Shown here: positions 5,420 to 44,585 of the stretch, in pieces
Layout of the letters: each line of letters starts with the position of its first letter
How positions within the stretch are numbered: position 1 is the first letter of the stretch
DNA from: Nitrospirota bacterium
GTDB taxonomy: Bacteria > Nitrospirota > Thermodesulfovibrionia > Thermodesulfovibrionales > Dissulfurispiraceae
Length of the DNA: 64,000 bases
Direction: 5' to 3'
NCBI GenBank assembly: GCA_021791055.1
Contig: JAJYXI010000006.1
Location: 1-64,000, forward strand
Made by a program: the position numbers and the translations under genes
The notes under the pieces: generated by a model
The model's database searches: none
What the model was told of the DNA's origin: nothing
Seen by the model: only the letters and a program-made list of their open reading frames with translations

Positions 5420-6457
5420 ATGACAACGGACAGTCCGGAGAAAATAAAACAGCTCAATACATTAATAGAATTATCTGCCCTCATTAATTCATCCCTTGAC
5501 ATTGCCGAGATAAGAAAGAGGGCTATAGAGGCTGCCACAGAGCTTGTAAATACAGAGGCGGGAAGCCTGCTGTTTTTAGATGACGAGACAGGTGATCTCT
5601 ATTTTGATGTGGCCATCGGAGAAAAGGGGGAAAAGGTCAAGACCATTCGCCTTAAAAAGGGCCAGGGAATTGCAGGTTGGGTCGCAGAGCATGATGAGCC
5701 TGTGATTATAAATGATGCCCAGAATGATCCGAGGTTCTTTAAAGGCGCCGATGAAAAAAGCGGCTTTGTGACCAAAAGCATGATATGCGTGCCTGTAAAA
5801 ACAAAGGACAAACTTGTCGGAGTGCTTCAGGCAGTAAATAAAAAGGGCGCGTCCTTTGATAATGACGACCTTGATCTGCTGACAGGCCTTTCCAATCAGG
5901 TTGCCATAGCCATAGAAAATGCGAGATTGTATGATGAATTGAGGGAGACATTCTATGCTACAATCCATGCCCTTGCAGAGACTATAGAAAAAAGGGACCC
6001 GTACACGGCCGGGCACACGAAGAGGGTTATGAATTACAGCCTTGCTATTGGAAGGATGATGGGATTTTCAAAAAAAGAAATGGAAAATCTTAAACTTTCT
6101 GCTATCCTTCATGATATAGGAAAAATTGGAATAAGAGACGATGTGCTGCTTAAAAACGATAAATTGACATCAGATGAATTTAAGAAGATAATGATGCATA
6201 CAGTATACGGCGCAGAGATTCTTAACCACATAAGGCAGTTAAAGAGCGTGGTGCCCGGAGTGAAAAACCACCACGAAAAGTATGATGGTTCAGGTTATCC
6301 TGATGGCTTAAAAGGTGATGATATTCCAGTTATAGCGAGAATCATTGCTGTTACTGACACCTTTGATGCAATGACAACAGACAGGCCTTATAGAAAAGGG
6401 TTGAGCTTTGACGCTGCCTTTGAGGAACTAAAAAAGAACGCAGGCTTCTCAGTTTGA
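5420..6457 (+). CDS. GAF plus HD-GYP domain protein (probable c-di-GMP phosphodiesterase), frameshifted at its C-terminus
   Basis: Residues about 15-175 form a GAF sensor domain (GSLLFLDDETGDLYFDVAIG, ICVPVKTKDKLVGVLQAVNK). Residues about 185-340 form an HD-GYP domain with HDIGKIG, KNHHEKYDGSGYP and DTFDAMTTDRPYRKG, the metal-binding motifs of c-di-GMP phosphodiesterases. The frame ends early at ELKKNAGFSV. The expected family ending (QFDPDVVNAFFRAYKELEIIV) continues in the next frame and stops at 6513-6515. One extra base near 6445 explains this, either a real frameshift or a sequence error. A GAF ligand probably controls c-di-GMP breakdown. There is no membrane segment. Confidence 0.85.
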   Translation: MTTDSPEKIKQLNTLIELSALINSSLDIAEIRKRAIEAATELVNTEAGSLLFLDDETGDLYFDVAIGEKGEKVKTIRLKKGQGIAGWVAEHDEPVIINDAQNDPRFFKGADEKSGFVTKSMICVPVKTKDKLVGVLQAVNKKGASFDNDDLDLLTGLSNQVAIAIENARLYDELRETFYATIHALAETIEKRDPYTAGHTKRVMNYSLAIGRMMGFSKKEMENLKLSAILHDIGKIGIRDDVLLKNDKLTSDEFKKIMMHTVYGAEILNHIRQLKSVVPGVKNHHEKYDGSGYPDGLKGDDIPVIARIIAVTDTFDAMTTDRPYRKGLSFDAAFEELKKNAGFSV

Positions 6458-6530
6458 TCCGGATGTGGTCAATGCATTCTTTAGGGCATATAAAGAGCTT
6501 GAAATCATAGTATAGCTCCGGGGAGGGGAT

Positions 6531-7298
6531 ATGAAGATAAGGGTTCTTGGTTGCTCCGGTGCGGAATTTCCCGGTCATAATCCTCCGGGGTTTTTACTGG
6601 ACGAAGAAATATTGTTTGATGCAGGCAGCCTTACAAATGTCCTTGATAAAAATGCACAGGCAAAGATAAAGGATATTTTCATTACCCATGCGCACCTCGA
6701 CCACATAAGGGGCATCTCATTCCTTGCGGACAACATAATCGTTGCAAAAAGAAGACAAAGAGTAAATATCATAAGCATGCCGTCTGTGATAAGGACAATA
6801 AAGAAGCATTTCCTTAATGATTCTCTCTGGCCTGATTTTACAATGATACCCGACTATGAAAATGCTGTTTTAAGATACAGGGAGCTAACAGCAGGAAAAT
6901 CAATAAAAATAAATGATTATAAAATCACCTCGCACAAGGTTCATCACTCTGTTCCTGCAGTGGGATACTTAGTTGAAGATGCCCGTAATAAACGATTCTT
7001 TTACACAGGCGACACAGGTCCTACTGATTCCACATGGAAGAAGATAGGAGATAAAAAGATTCATTGCCTGATAATCGAAGTCTCGTTTCCAAACAGCATG
7101 AGAGATATGGCAATATTAACAGGACATCTTACACCCCAGTTGTTGAAAGAAGAGTTGATGAAGATCAAACAGATGCCGGAGCAGATATGCATCACGCATC
7201 CAAAACCACAGCACTTCAAGGCCATTAAGAAAGAGTTGGAAAGGCTTAAGATAAAAAAACTGCGGTTGCTGAAAGATGGAGATATAATCAGGATATAA
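6531..7298 (+). CDS. MBL-fold metallohydrolase, class II cAMP phosphodiesterase-like
   Basis: The 255-residue cytoplasmic protein has the metallo-beta-lactamase motif THAHLDH near residue 50, a later HHSVPAVGY segment, FYTGDTGP and GHLT. The order THxHxDH ... GHLT is typical of class II 3',5'-cyclic-nucleotide phosphodiesterases (PF02112-like), which hydrolyse cAMP with two metals. That substrate is an inference from family resemblance. GGGGAGGGG precedes the ATG. It follows the HD-GYP gene by 15 bp after that gene's frameshifted end, so they likely form a signalling operon. Its 3' end overlaps ribE (opposite strand) by 11 bp. Confidence 0.7.
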   Translation: MKIRVLGCSGAEFPGHNPPGFLLDEEILFDAGSLTNVLDKNAQAKIKDIFITHAHLDHIRGISFLADNIIVAKRRQRVNIISMPSVIRTIKKHFLNDSLWPDFTMIPDYENAVLRYRELTAGKSIKINDYKITSHKVHHSVPAVGYLVEDARNKRFFYTGDTGPTDSTWKKIGDKKIHCLIIEVSFPNSMRDMAILTGHLTPQLLKEELMKIKQMPEQICITHPKPQHFKAIKKELERLKIKKLRLLKDGDIIRI

Positions 7299-34936: not shown

Positions 34937-36868
34937 ATGAAACTTAAAAATCTCACACTCAGCACAAAGTTTACCCTCACCGTAGGACTCATCCTGCTTG
35001 CCTTCTGCATAATATTCTCTTTCCTTCTCTACCTTCACCTAAAGAACAAGGTAATAGAAGATGCCAATGAGAAGACCCTGATCATCATAACACAGATAGG
35101 CGCTGTTGGCGATTACATTAAGAATACCTTGCGGCCGAAGATGTTCCAGATGTTTCCAAATACAGAGGACAAATTCATTGTTGAGGCCATGTCCACAACC
35201 CATGTAACCCACGAGGTCATGAAAAGATTCAATAATGACTTGAAGGATTATATCTACAGAAGGGTCTCGAACAACCCCCTTAATCAAAAGGATAAGGCCG
35301 ATGCACTTCATGAAGGGATGATTGCATTTTTCCAGAAGAACAAGGAGCAGAAGTCATGGAACGGCATAATCAAGATAGAAGGCCAGGAGTTTCTCATCAG
35401 GGTAAGGGCAATAACCGCTGAGAAAGGGTGTCTTGCATGTCATGGAGACCCATCAAAAGCGCCGAGGGGTCTTGTTAAAAAGTACGGGACTAAGAGCGGC
35501 TTCGGCTGGAAGAAGGGAGATGTAATCGGCGTTGAATCTGTAACTATCCCCCTTGATATTACACTGGGACAGATTAAGGGGATAGCCATATCCACTTTTA
35601 TATTCGGCTTTATAACCCTTCTCTTTCTCTTCATATCACTGCAGGGCGCTTTCTGGAGTCTTGTGAGCAGGCCGTTAAGCAGGTTAACCACTGTATTTAA
35701 AGGCATTGCTGATGGCACGGAACCCCTGAATCAGGATCTCACCATTACCACCCGTGATGAGATCGGAGAGTTGACAGAATCCTTTAACCAGATGGCAAAA
35801 CATCTTTATAATGCACAGGAGGATTTGAGAAAAAATGCCGAAACTCTGCGCTCTATTTTTGAAGGCATCAGCGACCCCCTTGCCCTTGTGAATCCGGACT
35901 GCACCCTCGAGATAACAAATCAGGCATACAGGGAATGGATGGCAAAGGGTATAAGTGCGGTCTTCACAAAGAAATGCCAGCCTGAAAACTGCGATGCAGA
36001 CACATCCTGTCCTGTCTGTTTTCTGGCAAAGGCAGAGAGGGAAAAGAGGGCTATTTCCGAATACTGGGAGGGCGATGACGGGCAATACTATTATGTACAT
36101 CTCTACCCGATATTCGATGACAATGGAAATGTCTTAAAGGCAGTCCATTATGTCAGGGACATAACCGATAAAAAACAGATGGAAGAACAGATGAGGATGG
36201 CCGAGAAATTGGCTGCTGTCGGTCAGCTTTCAGCAGGCGTAGCCCATGAAATAAACAACCCCCTCGGCGGAATAAGGCTCTGTTTTAATAATCTCATGAC
36301 CATGGGGATGGATGAAGAAACAAGAAAGATGCATATAGATGTTATAAACTCCGGGCTGGAGAGGATTCAGGGCATAGTAAGGCAACTCTTAGAGTTTTCA
36401 AAAAAGTCCTCCCTGAGTGTTTCGCCTGTATCAATAAACAGGCTGATAGTGGATGTGTTAAAACTGACGGAGTATCTCGTATCAAAAAAGGGCATAAAGG
36501 TCATAAAAAACCTCTCCCCGGAAATCCATGAAATAATGGTTGACCCCAACAAGATGGAGCAGGTATTTTTAAATATCATACTCAATGCAATCCATGCAAT
36601 GGATGGAAATCAGGGATCACTGACAATAGAGACCTCATCCAACAACGGCTTTTGCAAGGCATCTTTTGGAGATTCGGGCCCCGGCATACCCGACAATGTA
36701 TTGCCTTATATATTCGATCCCTTTTTCACCACAAAGGCAGTGGGAGAGGGTACAGGCCTCGGCCTTTCAGTAAGCAAATCGATAGTGGAGCAGCACAGAG
36801 GAGAGATAGTGGTGGAGACAAGCCAAAGGGGAACCAAATTTACGGTAATATTACCTGTATCAAAATGA
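34937..36868 (+). CDS. Sensor histidine kinase with c-type heme (Tll0287/DUF3365-like) input domain
   Basis: The 643-residue inner-membrane kinase has helix 1 at about residues 12-34 and helix 2 at about 213-239. Between them is a periplasmic Tll0287-like (DUF3365) domain with the heme motif C165-L-A-C168-H169. Then follow HAMP (about 240-293) and a PAS domain (about 305-415) with a Cys cluster (C347, C352, C358, C361). HisKA has the phospho-acceptor His437 in GVAHEINNPLGG, and the HATPase has DSGPGIPDNVL and GTGLGLSVS. It probably senses redox state, a gas or a ligand at the heme. The ATGA overlap with the next gene shows that it pairs with the NtrC-type regulator. Confidence 0.92.
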   Translation: MKLKNLTLSTKFTLTVGLILLAFCIIFSFLLYLHLKNKVIEDANEKTLIIITQIGAVGDYIKNTLRPKMFQMFPNTEDKFIVEAMSTTHVTHEVMKRFNNDLKDYIYRRVSNNPLNQKDKADALHEGMIAFFQKNKEQKSWNGIIKIEGQEFLIRVRAITAEKGCLACHGDPSKAPRGLVKKYGTKSGFGWKKGDVIGVESVTIPLDITLGQIKGIAISTFIFGFITLLFLFISLQGAFWSLVSRPLSRLTTVFKGIADGTEPLNQDLTITTRDEIGELTESFNQMAKHLYNAQEDLRKNAETLRSIFEGISDPLALVNPDCTLEITNQAYREWMAKGISAVFTKKCQPENCDADTSCPVCFLAKAEREKRAISEYWEGDDGQYYYVHLYPIFDDNGNVLKAVHYVRDITDKKQMEEQMRMAEKLAAVGQLSAGVAHEINNPLGGIRLCFNNLMTMGMDEETRKMHIDVINSGLERIQGIVRQLLEFSKKSSLSVSPVSINRLIVDVLKLTEYLVSKKGIKVIKNLSPEIHEIMVDPNKMEQVFLNIILNAIHAMDGNQGSLTIETSSNNGFCKASFGDSGPGIPDNVLPYIFDPFFTTKAVGEGTGLGLSVSKSIVEQHRGEIVVETSQRGTKFTVILPVSK

Positions 36869-38229
36869 AGGGTAAAATACTCATAATCGAAGACGAACCT
36901 ACCATGAGGCTGGGGATGAGCCATTTCCTCTCATCATCAGGCTATGCAGTCAAGCCCTGCGAAGATGGAGCGGATGGCCTGGCGGCAATAGAAAAAGGCG
37001 ATTTTGACATCATAATCACAGACCTTAAGCTGCCCAAATATAACGGTCTCTCAATACTTAACCATGCAAAAAAAATCTCTCCTGAAACAGGCGTGATAAT
37101 CATTACTGCATACGCAGAGGTCAAGACAGCAGTGCAGGCCATCAAGGACGGCGCCTTTGATTACATTGCAAAGCCATTCTCCAATGAAGAACTGCTCATA
37201 ACCATCGAGAGATTCATGAAGTTCCGCAGCCTCGAGGCTGAGTTGAGCCGCCTGAGGGAATCCGTGACCGAAAAGATCGGCTTTGAGAATATCATAGGCG
37301 TAAGCCCTGCCATGAAGGATGTATTTGATCGCATATCATCAATAGCAAAAACAGACGTGCCTGTCTTAATTCAGGGAGAAAGCGGTACCGGAAAGGAGCT
37401 CGTGGCAAATGCAATCCACAACCTCAGCCTGAGAAAAGACAAGCCATGCATAAAGATAAACTGTGCCGCAATACCCGAAAATCTATTTGAGTCAGAGCTT
37501 TTTGGACATGAAAAGGGCGCATTCACAGGCGCAGCAGAGGCGAGGAAGGGAAAATTCGAAATTACAGATAGCGGCAGCATATTCTTTGATGAAATAGGCG
37601 ACATGCCCATGGGACTTCAGGCAAAGCTCCTGAGGGTTATCGAAGAGCATACTGTTACCCGTCTCGGAGGCAATGAGCCGGTAAAGGTTGATGTGAGGGG
37701 AATCTATGCAACGAGCAAGAACCTGAAGGACTGCATAGCAGCAGGGAAATTCAGGGAAGACCTGTTTTACAGGATAAATGTGGTCCCTATAATAATTCCG
37801 CCATTAAGGGAAAGGAAGGAAGACATCCCCTATCTCATAGAGCACTTTTTGAAATATTTCGGCGAGAAATATGCAAAACCTGAATTAAAGGTAGCGCCCT
37901 CTGCATACAATGCCCTTCTATCATACCAGTATCCGGGAAATGTCAGGGAGCTGAAACACGCCATCGAGAGGTCAATTCTCCTTTCAAAAAATGGCTTGAT
38001 AGACCTTAAAACCCTCCCTGATGAATTTTCTGCCCAGGGAATCGGATGTGCCCAATTTAACAACCTTCCGGTTAATACGCCTCTCCAGAAAGGCGTAGTT
38101 TTCCTTGAAAGACAGATGATAATGAATGCATTAAAAGAGAGCGGCGGCAAAAAAATAGAGGCTGCCAGGAAACTCGGAATAAGCAGAAAGGTCCTCTGGA
38201 AGAAGTTGAAGGAATACAGCATTGAGTAA
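36865..38229 (+). CDS. Sigma-54-dependent response regulator (NtrC family)
   Basis: The 454-residue protein has a receiver domain (IIEDEP; phospho-Asp in IIITDLKLPKYNG), an AAA+ domain with Walker A GESGTGKELVANAIH, the sigma-54 contact loop GAFTGAAEARKG and Walker B FFDEIGD, and a Fis-type HTH (KIEAARKLGISRKVLWKKLKEY). I use the ATG at 36865, which overlaps the kinase stop; a longer frame from 36652 runs inside the kinase gene. It should activate the sigma-54 promoters at 38339 and 42607, whose upstream regions share GGGAACA sites. Confidence 0.95.
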   Translation: MKGKILIIEDEPTMRLGMSHFLSSSGYAVKPCEDGADGLAAIEKGDFDIIITDLKLPKYNGLSILNHAKKISPETGVIIITAYAEVKTAVQAIKDGAFDYIAKPFSNEELLITIERFMKFRSLEAELSRLRESVTEKIGFENIIGVSPAMKDVFDRISSIAKTDVPVLIQGESGTGKELVANAIHNLSLRKDKPCIKINCAAIPENLFESELFGHEKGAFTGAAEARKGKFEITDSGSIFFDEIGDMPMGLQAKLLRVIEEHTVTRLGGNEPVKVDVRGIYATSKNLKDCIAAGKFREDLFYRINVVPIIIPPLRERKEDIPYLIEHFLKYFGEKYAKPELKVAPSAYNALLSYQYPGNVRELKHAIERSILLSKNGLIDLKTLPDEFSAQGIGCAQFNNLPVNTPLQKGVVFLERQMIMNALKESGGKKIEAARKLGISRKVLWKKLKEYSIE

Positions 38230-38237
38230 GCCCGTCC

Positions 38238-38265
38238 GGGAACACTTGCTCCTCTAAATGTTCCC
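38238..38265. promoter_or_regulatory. Putative enhancer (UAS) GGGAACA-N14-TGTTCCC
   Basis: A perfect inverted repeat, GGGAACA (38238-38244) and TGTTCCC (38259-38265), lies about 75-100 bp upstream of the -24/-12 promoter, the usual place for an NtrC-type activator. The same half-site occurs upstream of the second sigma-54 promoter (42507-42544). It could also act as a weak hairpin after the regulator gene. Confidence 0.55.
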
Positions 38266-38338
38266 AAGCGGAAACGCAATTTCATTATATCCCTAAAATT
38301 TTCTTGTAAAAAACAATCGCTCATTCAAGTATCTTAAA

Positions 38339-38354
38339 TGGCATCGCAATTGCA
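38339..38354 (+). promoter_or_regulatory. Sigma-54 (-24/-12) promoter for the uspA-permease operon
   Basis: TGGCAT-cgcaa-TTGCA matches the sigma-54 consensus TGGCAC-N5-TTGCA with one change. The start codon of the downstream UspA gene is at 38446, about 80 bases after the expected start point. It lies right after the gene of a sigma-54 activator. Confidence 0.8.
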
Positions 38355-38368
38355 TTACATTATAATTG

Positions 38369-38406
38369 CATTTTGTAGCACAAATGTTTCGTTTTGCTAC
38401 AAAATG
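38369..38406. promoter_or_regulatory. Perfect 11-bp inverted repeat in the sigma-54 leader
   Basis: CATTTTGTAGC (38369-38379) is inverted as GCTACAAAATG (38396-38406), with a 16-base spacer. It lies just downstream of the expected transcription start and 40 bp before the UspA ribosome site GAAAGGAGGG. It could be an operator or an RNA hairpin controlling translation or stability. Confidence 0.55.
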
Positions 38407-38445
38407 GGTTGCTTGAATTTTTATCACAAAGAAAGGAGGGAAAAG

Positions 38446-38865
38446 ATGAAGATATTGGTTGCACATGATGGGTCGGATTACTCGAACAAGGCATTGAAAA
38501 AAGGGGCTGATATTGCAAAAAAGGAAAACGCTTCCCTATCGGTAGTAAATGTCGTGCCTGACCTCGGTTTTACCGACGAATTGGGCGACGACTATACCAA
38601 AACCCTTTATAGCACCTTAACGGATGAGGCAGAAAAACTGATGAAAGGAATAAAGGATGACCTTTCGAAGTCTCTGCAGGATGTAAGAACAGAGGTCAGG
38701 TTTGGGAGTCCTGCTGAAATCATTGTCGATATTGCAAATAGTGAGAAGGTCGACCTGCTCGTTGTCGGCTCCCATGGTAAACATGGCGCAAAAAAGTTCT
38801 ATCTTGGAAGCGTATCTTCCAAGGTGATTAGTCATGCACCATGCGATGTCCTTGTCGTGAAATAA
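38446..38865 (+). CDS. Universal stress protein (UspA family)
   Basis: The 139-residue cytoplasmic protein has the UspA fold: MKILVAHDGSDYSNKAL at the start, LSVVNVVPD, and the ATP-binding end VDLLVVGSHGKHGAKKFYLGSVSSKVISHAPCDVLVVK with the G-x2-G-x(9)-GS pattern. It is the first gene behind the sigma-54 promoter at 38339 and has the strong ribosome site GAAAGGAGGG. A longer frame starting at 38338 overlaps the promoter and is rejected. It probably acts as a nucleotide-binding regulator of the following permease, a common UspA-transporter pairing. Confidence 0.93.
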   Translation: MKILVAHDGSDYSNKALKKGADIAKKENASLSVVNVVPDLGFTDELGDDYTKTLYSTLTDEAEKLMKGIKDDLSKSLQDVRTEVRFGSPAEIIVDIANSEKVDLLVVGSHGKHGAKKFYLGSVSSKVISHAPCDVLVVK

Positions 38866-38912
38866 ACAATAGATGTTTTGTTATATAACTGATGAACAGG
38901 AGGAGGTAAAGG

Positions 38913-40505
38913 ATGAATGGAGAAAAAAGGTCGCCTGCAGCATTGATTGTAGGCATTATTCTGCTCGTTTACGCTCTGATTTTGAAACGCCACGAGGCAG
39001 CAGCGATTCCCGGATTTCTTATGGAGTTAATGAATTATCTCAAGGCCGGTAAAACCGTGGATACGCAGGTCGGCGTGGGAATATGGGCCGGCACAATAAT
39101 TTCATTGTTCGGGATATGGAATCTCGTCCAGCCGGCAATGAAATCCAAGTTCGATATGGTAGTAAGGGCGCCGATGGCCGGCGCCGGCATGATGATCATA
39201 CTTGCATATCTCTGCCGTTTTTATTTCGAACCGATTTTTAAGTTATGGGGTAAAGCTGCAGAGCCTGCGCTGGGTTTTAATTTTGCAACCATATTCGGCC
39301 TCAACTATATACTTTTAGGGGTTCTTCTCGGACTCGTATGGGTTAATACCATCGGCGTGCCGAAATGGATGCAGTCAGGCGTCAAGACTGCGCGATTGGC
39401 CATGAAGATGGGCGTTATCAGCCTGGGTGCCATGTACAGTATTACGGAACTGCGCTATCTCGGCGCTATGAGTTTTACAATGATCACGATATTTGTTATG
39501 GGTACAGCTATACTTGTGCTCTGGTTAAGTCAGATGATGAAGATAGCAAGACCCTTGGCCGGCGTGCTTTCTGCCGGAATAGCTGTGTGCGGCGTATCCG
39601 CAGCGGTAGCGGCAGCGCCTGTTGTAAAGGCCCGAGGCATCGATATGGCCTACTCGATAGGAATGCTGCTGCTCATAGGCGTGGTGGGGCTCTTTACATT
39701 TCCGCCTATAGCTAAAATAGTCGGTATGAATGAGTTGCAGTTCGGCGCATGGGCTGGAACAGGCATACTCAATTCCGCTCAGGTTGCGGCAGCAGCCCTT
39801 ATTTTCGACCCTCATACGATAGAAACATTGAAAGTTGCCGAGATATTCAACATCACAAGGATACTTTTCCTGCCATTTATCGTCATTATCCTCGCAATCT
39901 GGTTTGCCAAAGGCGAAGAAGAAGCAGAGGCAGGCAAAGTAAATCTTGGCAGGATTATCGTAGAGAAATTCCCGATATTCGTTTTAGGTTTTCTGATCAT
40001 GTTCGCCTTAAGTTCTACGGGTGTATTTACGCCTAAGGATCATGTCCTGTACGGAAAGCATTTCTACAGCTTCAAGATTGATGAGAAAAGGGAATTAAGA
40101 ACGAGAGACCTCAAGAAGGTCCAGGTATTTATCGAATCAGGCGCCGTTACAGACCCCAAGGTCAAGGCAGCGCTCGAAAAGCTTGTGGCCGACAGGCAGG
40201 TTACCGGCGTCGAACAGACGGATCTCGTGCTGAAGGCGCAGGACTTCACCAAAGATAAAGACCTGAAGAAGGTCTTTAAAGACGCCGACAAAAAGGTTCA
40301 GGCAAAGCCCAAGACCTTAGAGGTCATGAGAGAGTATATGATGTGGTTCTTTGCTTTCGGTCTCATAGGCCTCGGTATGCAGATTACATGGCAGACCATC
40401 CGGCAGGCGGGAGGCAAGGCCGCTACAATAGGAGTTATTGCCGGTATCACAAAGGCGGTTCTTTCCTTCTTTGTGGTCTGGCTGTTTATTAAGGGAACCA
40501 TCTAA
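38913..40505 (+). CDS. YeiH/UPF0324-type permease with a soluble insert
   Basis: The 530-residue protein has about eleven membrane segments. The signature SAGIAVCGVSAAVAAAPVVKA (about residues 220-240) matches YeiH/TauZ/CuyZ-type putative sulfate or sulfite exporters (PF03601). Typical members have about 340-350 residues; this one has an extra Lys-rich soluble part at about 372-475 before the last two helices. It is followed by a 48-residue single-helix protein, and the same arrangement recurs at 42777-44818. Sulfur-compound export is inferred only from family naming and from the neighbouring rhodanese. Confidence 0.72.
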   Translation: MNGEKRSPAALIVGIILLVYALILKRHEAAAIPGFLMELMNYLKAGKTVDTQVGVGIWAGTIISLFGIWNLVQPAMKSKFDMVVRAPMAGAGMMIILAYLCRFYFEPIFKLWGKAAEPALGFNFATIFGLNYILLGVLLGLVWVNTIGVPKWMQSGVKTARLAMKMGVISLGAMYSITELRYLGAMSFTMITIFVMGTAILVLWLSQMMKIARPLAGVLSAGIAVCGVSAAVAAAPVVKARGIDMAYSIGMLLLIGVVGLFTFPPIAKIVGMNELQFGAWAGTGILNSAQVAAAALIFDPHTIETLKVAEIFNITRILFLPFIVIILAIWFAKGEEEAEAGKVNLGRIIVEKFPIFVLGFLIMFALSSTGVFTPKDHVLYGKHFYSFKIDEKRELRTRDLKKVQVFIESGAVTDPKVKAALEKLVADRQVTGVEQTDLVLKAQDFTKDKDLKKVFKDADKKVQAKPKTLEVMREYMMWFFAFGLIGLGMQITWQTIRQAGGKAATIGVIAGITKAVLSFFVVWLFIKGTI

Positions 40506-40530
40506 TAATCATAAAGCTGGAGGTGCTTAA

Positions 40531-40677
40531 ATGGCTGAAGAGAAAGCGACGAAGGAAGAACAAAAAAAGATGGAGGAGCGGGCACTCAGCGTCTTCGCCT
40601 CTGAGAAAAAGGAAGACTTGACGGCGCTGGTAATCGCCTTTGCCCTGGCAATATTCGTGATTATTGCATTTAAGTAA
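40531..40677 (+). CDS. Mini membrane protein, 48 aa (possible permease subunit)
   Basis: The ATG at 40531 follows GGAGG. The protein has a charged, helical N-terminus (MAEEKATKEEQKKMEERAL) and one C-terminal membrane helix (TALVIAFALAIFVIIAF). It sits 25 bp after the YeiH-type permease gene and 4 bp before a UspA gene. A similar mini protein follows the second permease (44657). I do not recognise a family. A small accessory subunit, in the way KdpF relates to KdpA, is an inference from position. Confidence 0.65.
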   Translation: MAEEKATKEEQKKMEERALSVFASEKKEDLTALVIAFALAIFVIIAFK

Positions 40678-40681
40678 AGCC

Positions 40682-41188
40682 ATGTTTAAAAGAATACTTA
40701 TAGCTACGCATGGTACGGAAGGGGCTAAAAAAGCCGAGTCATATGCCATAGGGCTTGCAAGGGAATTTGGCGCGGAGATCCATGGTCTTTATGTGATACA
40801 TAAAGACCTGGGTTCGCTTGTCGGCATCGAGTGGCTGCACAATTCTCATGTGAGGATGGAGTTTTACAGGCATGCGGAATCCGAATTTAACCGCAGGGCC
40901 GAAGAAGTATTAGAAGCCTTCAGGGAGCGTGCGACAGGAATTGAAGTCACCCCAGCCATCAGGGTGGGAGATCCTGTCGAGGTTATAGCAGATGAGGCGA
41001 GGAATAAGGGAGCTGACCTTATTATTATTGGTGGCAGCAGCAATGGGAGATCAGAGGAATATAAGGCAAAAGTTTCTCTGAAAAAGCTCTCAAAGATTGC
41101 GCCATGCCCTGTCTTGATAGCAAATAACACTTCAATGATTTCGGCAAGGGAGGTGGTGTGGAGTTTAGCGAGGCAACTAAAAAATTAG
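40682..41188 (+). CDS. Universal stress protein (UspA family), second copy
   Basis: The 168-residue protein starts MFKRILIATHGTEGAKKAESYAIGLAREFGAEI and ends with the ATP-site region ADLIIIGGSSNGRSEEYKAKVSLKKLSKIAPCPVLIA, a degenerate form of the G-x2-G-x(9)-G(S/T) motif. It is longer than the first UspA because of an internal helix (HNSHVRMEFYRHAESEFNRRAEE). It is in the same operon as the first YeiH-type permease and its mini protein. Confidence 0.88.
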   Translation: MFKRILIATHGTEGAKKAESYAIGLAREFGAEIHGLYVIHKDLGSLVGIEWLHNSHVRMEFYRHAESEFNRRAEEVLEAFRERATGIEVTPAIRVGDPVEVIADEARNKGADLIIIGGSSNGRSEEYKAKVSLKKLSKIAPCPVLIANNTSMISAREVVWSLARQLKN

Positions 41189-41248
41189 CCTTAAGTCTTT
41201 GGGCTTCTCAATGACTTAATGGCTCATACTAAAGATTAGGGGGTAAAG

Positions 41249-41749
41249 ATGTTAAGGAAAACGGCGATAGCTTTAGTGTGCTTAGTATTTGCAGTTGTGG
41301 GTTTTTATAACCTCGCATCTGCTGCGGATTGGCCTGATGCCTTAATAAAGGAAGTGGAGGCGCTTAAGGCTGCTGGAAAAGATAAAAAGGACATGCCGCC
41401 AACCATAGCAGGTGTAAAGAATATTACAGGCGATGAAATCAAAAAAATGATGGACGAAAAGAAAAAGTTTGTGCTTATGGACAACAGGCTTAAGGCTGAC
41501 TATGATAAGGAGCATATTGCAGGCGCTGTGCTTCTTACTGTGGATGAACTGCTTAAAGACCCAAAACTGGCTGACAAGTATAAAAAGGATGATATGCTCG
41601 TTAATTACTGCAATGGCGTAAAATGCTGGAGATCACCGGCAGCAGTATTGCTCCTCAAGCACCTCGGATTCAAGAATATCTACTGGTATAGGGATGGCAT
41701 TCCTGATTGGATAAAGAAAGACTACCCGACGGTAGAGGGCAAGAAGTAG
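41249..41749 (+). CDS. Periplasmic rhodanese-like protein
   Basis: A signal peptide (about residues 1-26, ending ASAADW) precedes a rhodanese domain. KKKFVLMDNRLKADYDKEHIAGAVLLTVDEL is the typical rhodanese core; the active loop is YCNGVKCWRS with Cys121 and a second Cys126. Such proteins move sulfane sulfur or bind thiosulfate-like ligands in the periplasm. It closes the sigma-54-controlled operon before a strong hairpin. With the YeiH-type permeases it hints at sulfur-compound handling. Confidence 0.88.
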   Translation: MLRKTAIALVCLVFAVVGFYNLASAADWPDALIKEVEALKAAGKDKKDMPPTIAGVKNITGDEIKKMMDEKKKFVLMDNRLKADYDKEHIAGAVLLTVDELLKDPKLADKYKKDDMLVNYCNGVKCWRSPAAVLLLKHLGFKNIYWYRDGIPDWIKKDYPTVEGKK

Positions 41750-41764
41750 GGAGCCGGCGTATTC

Positions 41765-41798
41765 TTGCAGGGGCATGGAATTATACATGCCCCTGCAA
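41765..41798. terminator. Strong hairpin after the rhodanese gene (terminator-like, no T-run)
   Basis: TTGCAGGGGCATG is perfectly inverted as CATGCCCCTGCAA with an 8-base loop. It lies 16 bp after the rhodanese stop. Without a T-run it may act as an RNA stabiliser or a rho-assisted terminator. Confidence 0.6.
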
Positions 41799-41837
41799 TC
41801 AAGTCATCCAGAATTAAAATTCCAAAGCCTTTTTTGA

Positions 41838-41843
41838 TATAAA
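41838..41843 (+). promoter_or_regulatory. -10 box directly before the SRPBCC gene
   Basis: TATAAA ends 9 bases before the ATG at 41853, with no Shine-Dalgarno. It follows the hairpin at 41765, so the gene probably has its own, possibly leaderless, transcript. Confidence 0.4.
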
Positions 41844-41852
41844 ATATAACCA

Positions 41853-42449
41853 ATGCAATACATATCAGAAAGTATTAATCTTCCTGTTTCAGAAGCTACA
41901 GCATTTAAAGTCCTTTCAGACCTGAATGTAATCCTAAGGCTTTCACCTTATTTTAGCCTTAAAGGACTAAGGCATCTAACGGAAGGGGAAGCATGCAGGG
42001 GCAGTAGATATGAGGCGACCATCGAATATTACGGAAAGGAGTTGACCGAAACACATGGCATGGAGGTTCTTGAGCTTTCAAGAGATAGAAGAATTTCCTT
42101 CAAAGTAAACGATGGGATACTGAAGGAGATAAGCTTTAATATTGAAAAAGACAGTGACGGGATTCGGCTGACGCATCAGTTTTTAATTGATTCAGATGAT
42201 GAGACTATACTAAAAGGAACCTATAGCGAGCTTGTCTTCTGGCTAAGAAGCATAGGAGAATATTTAAAGTTAGCCGAGGGAGGAACTTTATGGAGAAGGT
42301 TTTTTAAGTGGTTTATGGACAGAGTGTGGTTAAGGCTTACCCTCTCTGAAAGGAAGATCGCCATTATTATTACAAAGATATCCGTGCTCGAGCTTGTTTT
42401 GCTATTGATGCTTGTGATTATATGGAACATGTTCGTAAAATCAAGATAA
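41853..42449 (+). CDS. SRPBCC (START-like) domain protein with a C-terminal membrane anchor
   Basis: The 198-residue protein begins MQYISESINLPVSEATAFKVLSDLNVILRLSPYFSLKGL, the usual N-terminus of polyketide-cyclase/START-like ligand-binding domains, and continues with alternating strands (GSRYEATIEYYGKELTETH, FKVNDGILKEISFNIE). A single hydrophobic helix (about residues 174-193) ends in KSR, so the domain probably faces the cytoplasm, anchored by its tail. The ligand is unknown. It stands between the two sigma-54-controlled operons. Confidence 0.75.
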   Translation: MQYISESINLPVSEATAFKVLSDLNVILRLSPYFSLKGLRHLTEGEACRGSRYEATIEYYGKELTETHGMEVLELSRDRRISFKVNDGILKEISFNIEKDSDGIRLTHQFLIDSDDETILKGTYSELVFWLRSIGEYLKLAEGGTLWRRFFKWFMDRVWLRLTLSERKIAIIITKISVLELVLLLMLVIIWNMFVKSR

Positions 42450-42506
42450 GAATCATTGTATTTCTTGTTCTTGAGGGGTCTGGCTGAATGTGATATGAGT
42501 ATTAAC

Positions 42507-42544
42507 GGGAACAATCATTCCATCCATGTTGCCTGATGGGAACA
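42507..42544. promoter_or_regulatory. Putative enhancer (UAS): GGGAACA copies upstream of the second sigma-54 promoter
   Basis: GGGAACA (42507-42513), then TGTTGCC (42527-42533, N13), then another GGGAACA (42538-42544). They lie about 65-100 bp before the -24 box, just as GGGAACA/TGTTCCC does at 38238-38265. Probable binding sites of the NtrC-type regulator encoded at 36865-38229. Confidence 0.55.
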
Positions 42545-42606
42545 TAATATTTTTGCTCTCTCCAAAAATTCATAATGAAATCATAATGAATTAATGACTT
42601 TATTAT

Positions 42607-42622
42607 TGGCATTGTAATTGCA
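42607..42622 (+). promoter_or_regulatory. Sigma-54 (-24/-12) promoter for the second permease operon
   Basis: TGGCAT-tgtaa-TTGCA has the same elements and spacing as the site at 38339. The permease start is at 42777, after GGAGGGAGG. The 327-bp region 42450-42776 contains no gene; it holds this promoter and the GGGAACA sites. Confidence 0.8.
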
Positions 42623-42776: not shown

Positions 42777-44585
42777 ATGGCAGAAAAACGTTTTGATGAG
42801 GACAAACTGGCTGAAGGGCAATGCGACAGTCCTGCAACATGTGCGGTAGAAAAGAAGGGCATAAGTGAAGATTGGCTGTCGTTGTGGCTTGGACTCTTCA
42901 TATTTGTCCTTTCTCTTTTTGCATTCGCAAAAACGGATATACTTGGATGGGGGATTTCAACAAAGGTATGGACAGATGCTTCAAAGGCAATGTCTCCTGT
43001 AGGAAAAGATTATCAGGGCGTGAAAGGTGAAATTACAAAAATTGATGGTCAGAAGGTGACCCTCAAAAAGGCGGATGGAAAAGAAGAGACCATAACGGTA
43101 AAGGAGGATACATCCGGTCTTAAGGTGGGAGACAAGTATGAGAAAAAGGGAATATCAGGTTTTGCATCCATATTGTTAACCTATCTCTTCATGCTCGTTG
43201 TGATGACTATTGGCGCTGCGGCATTGCGTGCGAATGTCGGCAAATTCATTATAGGATTCACCATTGCCTTCTGGATAAGTTATGCATGCTGGTTTATTGG
43301 CCATTATGCATATATAGCCGCAACTAACGCAAAGAAGGCAGGTGTTCCATGGTCAATGAGGCTGACAGGAGAGTCGGGTTTTATAGTCGCACTTATAGCA
43401 GGCCTGTTTGTCGGCAACTTCATGCCCGGACTTTCAAAAACCCTGAAAGAAGCGGTAAGGCCCGAACTCTATATCAAAACTGCCATTGTCCTTATGGGCG
43501 CACTTCTCGGTCTTAAGGCAGCCGAGTCCTTCAGTCTGGCATCCGCGGTTATGTTCAGGGGACTCTGTGCCATTATCGAGGCATACCTCATCTATTGGGC
43601 AATGGTCTATTTTGTTGCGAGGAAATACTTCAAGTTCAGCAAGGAATGGGCAGCGCCCCTCGCATCCGGCATATCCATATGCGGTGTGTCAGCAGCAATA
43701 GCAACAGGCGGCGCCATAAGGGCAAGGCCTGTGGTGCCTATTATGGTATCCTCGCTGGTTGTTATATTCGCTGTCCTTGAGCTCATAATACTGCCCTTTT
43801 TAGCGCAGAACTTCTTATGGAAAGAGCCGTTGGTGGCAGGCGCATGGATGGGTCTTGCAGTCAAGACCGACGGCGCAGCAGTTGCAAGCGGTGCAGTTAC
43901 CGATGCACTTATAAGGGCAAAGGCTATGACAATGGAAGGGGTAAACTATAAGGAAGGCTGGATAACAATGACTTCTACGACGGTAAAGCTGTTCATTGAC
44001 ATCTTTATCGGTGTGTGGGCATTCATCCTGGCTATAATCTGGAGTGCAGTTATAGAGCGCAAAGAGGGTGGAAAGGTTCAGGCCATTGAGATATGGCATA
44101 GATTCCCGAAGTTTGTGCTGGGGTATGCCATCACATTCTTTATACTCCTGTTAATCTGTTTACCTGCTACCAGAGCCATGGGACCTGTTGACAAAGAGAT
44201 CGGCACCATAAAAGAAGAGGTCTCCAAGGCAGAAAAGCAGCTCCCGACAGTAACAGACCCGGCAGCACAGGCAGCCTTAACCGAAAAAATCAAGGCAGGG
44301 AAGGATAAGATAAAAGGCCTGGAGGCGCAGATTAAAGAACCAAAGGCAACTATCGCATCATCTAAAACAGCAACAAGCGGAAGCAACTCATTCAGGGTGA
44401 TGTTCTTTGTCCTGACCTTCTTTACAATCGGAGTTGTATCCAATTTCAAAAAGCTATGGGAAGAGGGTATTGGCAAACTGGCTGCTGTGTATATCCTTTG
44501 CCTCTTCGGGTTTATTATCTGGATTGGTTTGATTATCTCATGGATATTCTTCCATGGTGTGAAACCGCCGATAATAACAGGATGA
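42777..44585 (+). CDS. YeiH/UPF0324-type permease, second copy, with two inserted domains
   Basis: The 602-residue protein has the same signature (APLASGISICGVSAAIATGGAI, about residues 295-316) and about eleven helices. After the first helix it has a beta-rich insert (about 63-124, GVKGEITKIDGQKVTLKKADGK), and near the C-terminus a charged coiled-coil insert (about 469-536), both absent from ordinary 340-350-residue YeiH proteins. The GAWMGLAVKTDGAAVASGAV segment is conserved in the family. It is controlled by the sigma-54 promoter at 42607 and followed by a 53-residue one-helix protein. The substrate is unknown; sulfur oxyanion export is a guess from family naming. Confidence 0.72.
   Translation: MAEKRFDEDKLAEGQCDSPATCAVEKKGISEDWLSLWLGLFIFVLSLFAFAKTDILGWGISTKVWTDASKAMSPVGKDYQGVKGEITKIDGQKVTLKKADGKEETITVKEDTSGLKVGDKYEKKGISGFASILLTYLFMLVVMTIGAAALRANVGKFIIGFTIAFWISYACWFIGHYAYIAATNAKKAGVPWSMRLTGESGFIVALIAGLFVGNFMPGLSKTLKEAVRPELYIKTAIVLMGALLGLKAAESFSLASAVMFRGLCAIIEAYLIYWAMVYFVARKYFKFSKEWAAPLASGISICGVSAAIATGGAIRARPVVPIMVSSLVVIFAVLELIILPFLAQNFLWKEPLVAGAWMGLAVKTDGAAVASGAVTDALIRAKAMTMEGVNYKEGWITMTSTTVKLFIDIFIGVWAFILAIIWSAVIERKEGGKVQAIEIWHRFPKFVLGYAITFFILLLICLPATRAMGPVDKEIGTIKEEVSKAEKQLPTVTDPAAQAALTEKIKAGKDKIKGLEAQIKEPKATIASSKTATSGSNSFRVMFFVLTFFTIGVVSNFKKLWEEGIGKLAAVYILCLFGFIIWIGLIISWIFFHGVKPPIITG

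Follow-up and report, generated by a model that had tools for sequence, protein, structure and literature searches.

Tandem palindromes as predicted enhancers of an NtrC-type regulator of UspA and YeiH-like genes in a Nitrospirota bacterium

The window analyzed here is the whole stretch of 64,000 nucleotides from a Nitrospirota bacterium (GCA_021791055.1, contig JAJYXI010000006.1). It encodes a sensor histidine kinase and an NtrC-type response regulator, followed by two -24/-12 (sigma-54) promoters, one ahead of an operon of UspA-family and YeiH-like genes and the other ahead of a second YeiH-like gene. Two tandem dyads lie upstream of each promoter, and we propose that they are the enhancers of the adjacent regulator. 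The features of the locus are as follows, where TM denotes transmembrane and HTH helix-turn-helix.

34937..36868, + strand: sensor histidine kinase; TM, periplasmic Tll0287/DUF3365 (sCache_heme, CLACH), TM, HAMP, PAS, HisKA, HATPase
36862..38229, + strand: NtrC-type response regulator; REC, AAA+ with GAFTGA, Fis HTH ...LGISRKVLWKKLKEY; PF00072, PF00158, PF25601, PF02954
38227..38244, + strand: enhancer 1 dyad 1, TAAGCCC-gtcc-GGGAACA; overlaps the regulator stop codon; position and period kept in homologous loci
38259..38276, + strand: enhancer 1 dyad 2, TGTTCCC-aagc-GGAAACG; dyad 1 lies 32 bp away; profile match E=1e-5
38339..38354, + strand: sigma-54 promoter 1, TGGCATCGCAATTGCA; 62 bp beyond the dyad 2 end of enhancer 1
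38446..38865, + strand: UspA-family protein of target operon 1; Pfam PF00582
38913..40505, + strand: YeiH-like (PF03601, 162 bits) transporter TrA of target operon 1
40682..41188, + strand: second Usp domain protein of target operon 1; Pfam PF00582; gene order conserved
41249..41749, + strand: rhodanese domain protein, hydrophobic segment at the N-terminus; Pfam PF00581; order conserved; probable member of operon 1
41853..42449, + strand: protein without Pfam match, with C-terminal TM segment; order kept with TrA
42496..42513, + strand: enhancer 2 dyad 1, TGAGTAT-taac-GGGAACA; with a degenerate left half
42527..42544, + strand: enhancer 2 dyad 2, TGTTGCC-tgat-GGGAACA; dyad 1 lies 31 bp away; profile match E=0.008
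42607..42622, + strand: sigma-54 promoter 2, TGGCATTGTAATTGCA; 62 bp beyond the dyad 2 end of enhancer 2
42777..44585, + strand: longer YeiH-like (PF03601, 71.1 bits) transporter TrB, target 2

Both promoters and every copy of GGGAACA/TGTTCCC listed in the original prediction were found in the sequence. Exact half-sites of enhancer 1 are GGGAACA at 38238-38244 and TGTTCCC at 38259-38265. Those of enhancer 2 are GGGAACA at 42507-42513 and 42538-42544, with TGTTGCC at 42527-42533. The repeating unit had to be redefined. Homologous loci of related genomes were arranged with phmmer, and their intergenic sequences were compared side by side. What is conserved is a pair of 18-bp palindromes of the form TGTTCCC-N4-GGGAACA, arranged in tandem at a distance of about 32 bp (three helical turns). 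Each promoter has two such dyads, and the inverted repeat first noticed consists of the inner halves of the pair. The period was 30-34 bp (mode 33), the pair usually started at the regulator stop codon, and the -24/-12 site followed downstream. GGGAACA-N14-TGTTCCC was ruled out as the unit because its spacer varied from 12 to 16 (26 in locus L240), while N4 within the dyad stayed constant in the loci laid out. L240 comes from a different class of the phylum; there, the period was 44 bp (four turns) with N4 unchanged, as counted from the sequence by eye.

The kinase matched Pfam PF11845 with 126 bits (cut-off 24.1), and HAMP, PAS_4, HisKA and HATPase_c were also found. Its CLACH heme-c motif sits between the two TM segments (residues 6-37 and 212-244), so that the combination marking an sCache_heme sensor kinase, PF11845 with CxxCH and flanking TM helices, is complete. 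CxxCH was present in 32 of the 35 kinase open reading frames (ORFs) listed, including this one. The kinase is thus a predicted c-type-heme periplasmic Cache sensor. The regulator has the domains of an NtrC-type two-component enhancer-binding protein, namely a receiver Asp (aligned at position 54), an AAA+ domain with GAFTGA, which was kept in 43 of 45 aligned proteins, and a Fis-type HTH. It scored under the equivalog cut-offs of both NtrC (TIGR01818, 440.3 bits vs 558.6) and AtoC (NF008469, 463.9 bits vs 714). The genome encodes rpoN (440 bits), and the targets have -24/-12 promoters.

To see how rare the arrangement is, the genome (2.55 Mb, 87 contigs) was searched. The scan suggested by the original prediction gave eight occurrences of TGGCAY-N5-TTGCA, and only the two window promoters had GGGAACA within 150 bp upstream. 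The paired motif GGGAACA-gap-TGTTSCC occurred at three places, two of them the window sites; the possibility raised beforehand, that the motif turns up often by chance in the genome, was thus not borne out for the pair. TGTTCCC-N4-GGGAACA with up to two mismatches gave five matches, among them dyad 2 of enhancer 1, and the best was dyad 2 of enhancer 2 with one mismatch. We also trained a sequence-only profile on 12 loci of other genomes, with the window excluded, and applied it to 176 genomes of the order. At E<=0.05, it matched the genome of the window at the two reported sites only.

A direct search found regulator orthologues (587-1005 bits) in 43 of the 176 genomes, and by inspection tandem dyads adjoined the regulator in 31 of them, a count that takes in G001 (degenerate), G139 (one clear dyad), G020 and G007 (variant) and G029 (about 190 bp further on). 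The remaining 12 were G151, which is broken, and 11 genomes of genus g62 without dyads at the regulator. A further 13 loci served as a held-out test of the profile; they came neither from the training loci nor from G011, a near-identical genome of the same genus, and a weak match on G017 contig 95 (E=0.04) was not among them. Ten of the 13 were directly 3' of a regulator orthologue. Profile matches away from the regulator were L180, L182 and L185. The same dyads were also found directly upstream of the TrB orthologue in G013, G003, G004, G167 and G027. Because the same arrangement recurs beside the regulator in many genomes of the order, the circuit looks real. L180 has weak dyads, yet a promoter-like site lies 41 bp away, ahead of a Usp gene.

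Genus g62 separates the operator from the regulator gene. A tRNA-like sequence directly follows the regulator gene in 10 of its 11 genomes; in the eleventh, G110, neither a tRNA nor a dyad pair was visible after that gene. The g62 operator lies upstream of transporter or Usp genes and has the half-site TGTTAC, reading TGTTAC-N6-GTAACA. Exact copies numbered one or two per genome in seven of the 11 genomes and none in four, and the backward control gave 0, or 1 in one genome. In all seven, a copy was upstream of a PF03601 gene or of a Usp gene preceding one. In the regulator HTH, SRKA/TLWEK replaces SRKVLWKK in 10 of the 11 genomes, and the other, G113, has a broken HTH. Elsewhere, G020 combines the variant TGTTTC with the helix GRKALWKK, and G007 combines TGTTAC with SRKVLWSK. 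Since the operator changes with the recognition helix even though the genes are far apart, we regard this co-variation as the strongest evidence that this regulator, and not a neighbor, reads the site.

TGTTTC-N6-GAAACA was also tried as a general variant operator. It was clearly above the control only in G020 and G125, and marginally in G110, and was kept for G020 only. In G113 (L227), neither the kinase nor the regulator looks intact: CxxCH was not found in the kinase, and the regulator has an internal stop and lost its HTH in the alignment. The TrA-like promoter of G113 (L141) retains tandem dyads of mixed type. At L267 (1501-1518, G124 contig 12), TGTTAC-type tandem dyads lie 41 bp ahead of a -24/-12 site, and the downstream ORFs include a transposase-like one; this could be one more member of the regulon, carrying an inserted element.

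The distance from the dyad 2 end to the -24 T was determined for 41 promoters of 24 genera. For most of them, the -24/-12 site was the downstream site with the best score, chosen with distance ignored; L137, L140, L141 and L240 were counted by eye and then checked. Distances fell at 38-41 bp (7 promoters), 50-53 bp (26), 61-65 bp (6) and 72-74 bp (2), stepping by about one turn near 39, 52, 62 and 73 bp, and the 62 class includes both promoters of the window. With genera collapsed and the modal class left out, the phases clustered compared with uniform spacing (P=0.0025 for a 10.5-bp period and 0.006 for one of 11 bp). Spacing in one-turn steps agrees with a short loop across which activator and polymerase have to face each other. 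Matches to the integration host factor (IHF) site with one mismatch were moderately enriched, in 16 of the 41 spacers vs 6 in shuffles, which is only suggestive of IHF-assisted looping.

The alternative that survives best is that a different regulator, another NtrC-type protein or a repressor, binds the dyads, and that their co-location reflects operon conservation only. The link between the dyads and the adjacent regulator is drawn from sequence, and there is at least one other NtrC-type protein in the genome, encoded at L146 on contig 33 (G000). There, a related histidine kinase and an NtrC-type regulator (319 bits) accompany a PF03601 gene with the promoter TGGCATAACTATTGCC. This system, however, lacks the TGTTCCC dyad pair and has a different HTH, as a paralogous circuit with another operator would, and the operator in other genomes follows the helix of the adjacent-type regulator even where the genes are far apart. 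We consider binding by a different regulator improbable.

Slightly less probable still is that the inverted repeat at 38238-38265 acts as an RNA hairpin, a terminator or 3' end stabilizer of the regulator mRNA, rather than as a protein site. The repeat begins 9 nt past the stop codon and folds with -16.3 kcal/mol (z -2.6 vs shuffles), but it has no T-run and was absent from the terminator-like listing. Moreover, g62 has the same dyads upstream of transporters distant from the regulator gene, the best matches at 42507-42544 are a one-mismatch dyad and a direct GGGAACA repeat, and the half-site co-varies with the regulator helix. That a 7-mer came to cluster beside two promoters by chance has practically no likelihood, for although GGGAACA singly is ordinary in the window (11 copies vs 7.5 expected), the independently trained profile scored only the two window sites, the arrangement recurs in more than 30 genomes, and the held-out search contradicts it.

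We therefore return to the adjacent regulator, and put at about 0.88 the probability that the tandem dyads are its enhancers, from which it would activate RpoN-dependent transcription of the UspA/YeiH-like operon 1 and of the YeiH-like gene 2. The original prediction had already taken the sites for enhancers of the NtrC-type regulator encoded just before, and conservation, operator-helix co-variation and helix-phased spacing, observed together with the architecture and the presence of rpoN, argue for it. Several points weigh against this assignment. The outer halves of the window enhancers are weak, with 2-5 of 7 bases matching: those of enhancer 1 are degenerate (TAAGCCC and GGAAACG), and the outermost half of enhancer 2, TGAGTAT, matches at 2/7. 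G020 and G007 have variant operators, and no clear -24/-12 site was seen in G001. Counts over loci are not independent because the loci are related by descent, and the phasing test rests on six values outside the modal class. The profile misses variant operators, so that no match in another genome is no proof of absence. Binding of the regulator to the dyads and activation are what we infer from sequence, and the proposed signal, nitric oxide (NO) or the periplasmic redox state, would be borrowed from published work on other sensor-domain proteins.

In the proposed mechanism, the heme-c Cache kinase would phosphorylate the adjacent response regulator, and one regulator dimer would occupy each 18-bp palindrome. 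The two dimers would nucleate an AAA+ oligomer or ring, which may reach RpoN-polymerase through a short DNA loop of fixed helical phase and open the promoter by remodeling the sigma54-polymerase. The output would be the operon of UspA, YeiH-like exporter and rhodanese, together with the second YeiH-like exporter.

In the enhancer of enterobacterial glnA bound by NtrC (NR-I), the palindromic activator sites stand in tandem, separated by about three turns, with the operator TGCACY-N5-GGTGCA. Both systems have tandem sites upstream of -24/-12 and an AAA+ GAFTGA activator with Fis HTH. The window system differs in its operator, in a spacing that is closely quantized across species, and in a sensor and targets unrelated to nitrogen. 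Dependence on the face of the helix was reported for a two-site sigma54-NRI system (PMC7408454). NtrC-type enhancer architecture is thus known, and the window system is a further member of that kind.

The nearest experimentally mapped system, as likened by description, is the stress system DVU3303-DVU3305 of Desulfovibrio vulgaris (PMC3333781, PMC10102598, PMC4641369). In both, a kinase and a sigma54-dependent regulator govern, or in the window would govern, UspA-domain and putative anion transporter genes; in D. vulgaris these form a UspA-domain/membrane-protein operon with the transporter DVU3299, and a DVU3305 orthologue was reported in Thermodesulfovibrio yellowstonii (PMC3333781, PMC10102598). 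DVU3305 has GAFSGA (PMC4641369), in contrast to GAFTGA here. DVU3303 is a Lon-type partner, whereas no Lon-type response regulator partner was recognized by eye among the neighboring ORFs at 30-52 kb, to which the search was confined. If the DVU3305 operator is the same, the window regulon would extend the DVU3305 regulon; if not, it would be a separate one. No description of the window regulon was found in the open literature, and a word search on the operator sequence returned unrelated papers only.

In Salmonella, YeiH is required for sulfite resistance (PMC12880088) and is controlled by YeiE, a sulfite-binding LysR protein. The window likewise has a YeiH-family membrane protein under predicted regulation, but the regulator would be a sigma54 activator, and both window transporters stay under the YeiH subfamily cut-off (TIGR00698, 232.6; TrA 79.7 and TrB 38.2 bits) within the wider PF03601. 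As for the sensor, the available text of PMC12889525 describes an sCache_heme (DUF3365/Tll0287) version fused to a signaling module that behaved as an NO sensor with stable NO binding in vitro; periplasmic CxxCH Cache domains fused to kinases are common to both. That text mentions neither sigma nor sulfite and names no comparable operator or target.

Because the targets resemble YeiH but fall below its cut-off, and a member of the sensor family binds NO, NO/redox input and anion export are put forward as hypotheses, with odds somewhat below even. By analogy with YeiH, sulfite or a related anion is the probable export substrate. A wider picture, on which the odds are somewhat unfavorable, is that throughout the order and beyond, a c-type-heme Cache kinase sensing NO or periplasmic redox drives an exporter regulon dedicated to anions (sulfite-type); its tandem operator would stay in helical register with the promoter and co-evolve with the recognition helix, giving the spacing series of about one turn and the specificity changes. 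No operator, spacing rule or target list was described for heme-Cache class sensors in the literature found. The present analysis offers all three in concrete form and connects such a sensor with exporters resembling YeiH, about whose control and substrate little is known. Between them, the naturally occurring spacings (about 39/52/62/73 bp) and the operator variants TGTTCCC, TGTTAC and TGTTTC, which go with matching changes in the helix, allow direct tests of enhancer phasing and of HTH recognition.

Several minor features were seen around operon 1. Directly after TrA, a 48-aa ORF with one hydrophobic segment lies at 40531-40677, and the TrA homologue at L137 has a small ORF of similar kind ahead of it (about 6446-6610); the former is perhaps a small transporter subunit. 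At L052 (7503-7507, G138), an in-frame TGA divides the TrA homologue into two ORFs, by assembly error or as a pseudogene. Finally, a perfect inverted repeat, ATTTTGTAGCA...TGCTACAAAAT, occupies 38370-38405, where the operon 1 transcript is predicted to start, and its fold beats most shuffles (z -2.2).

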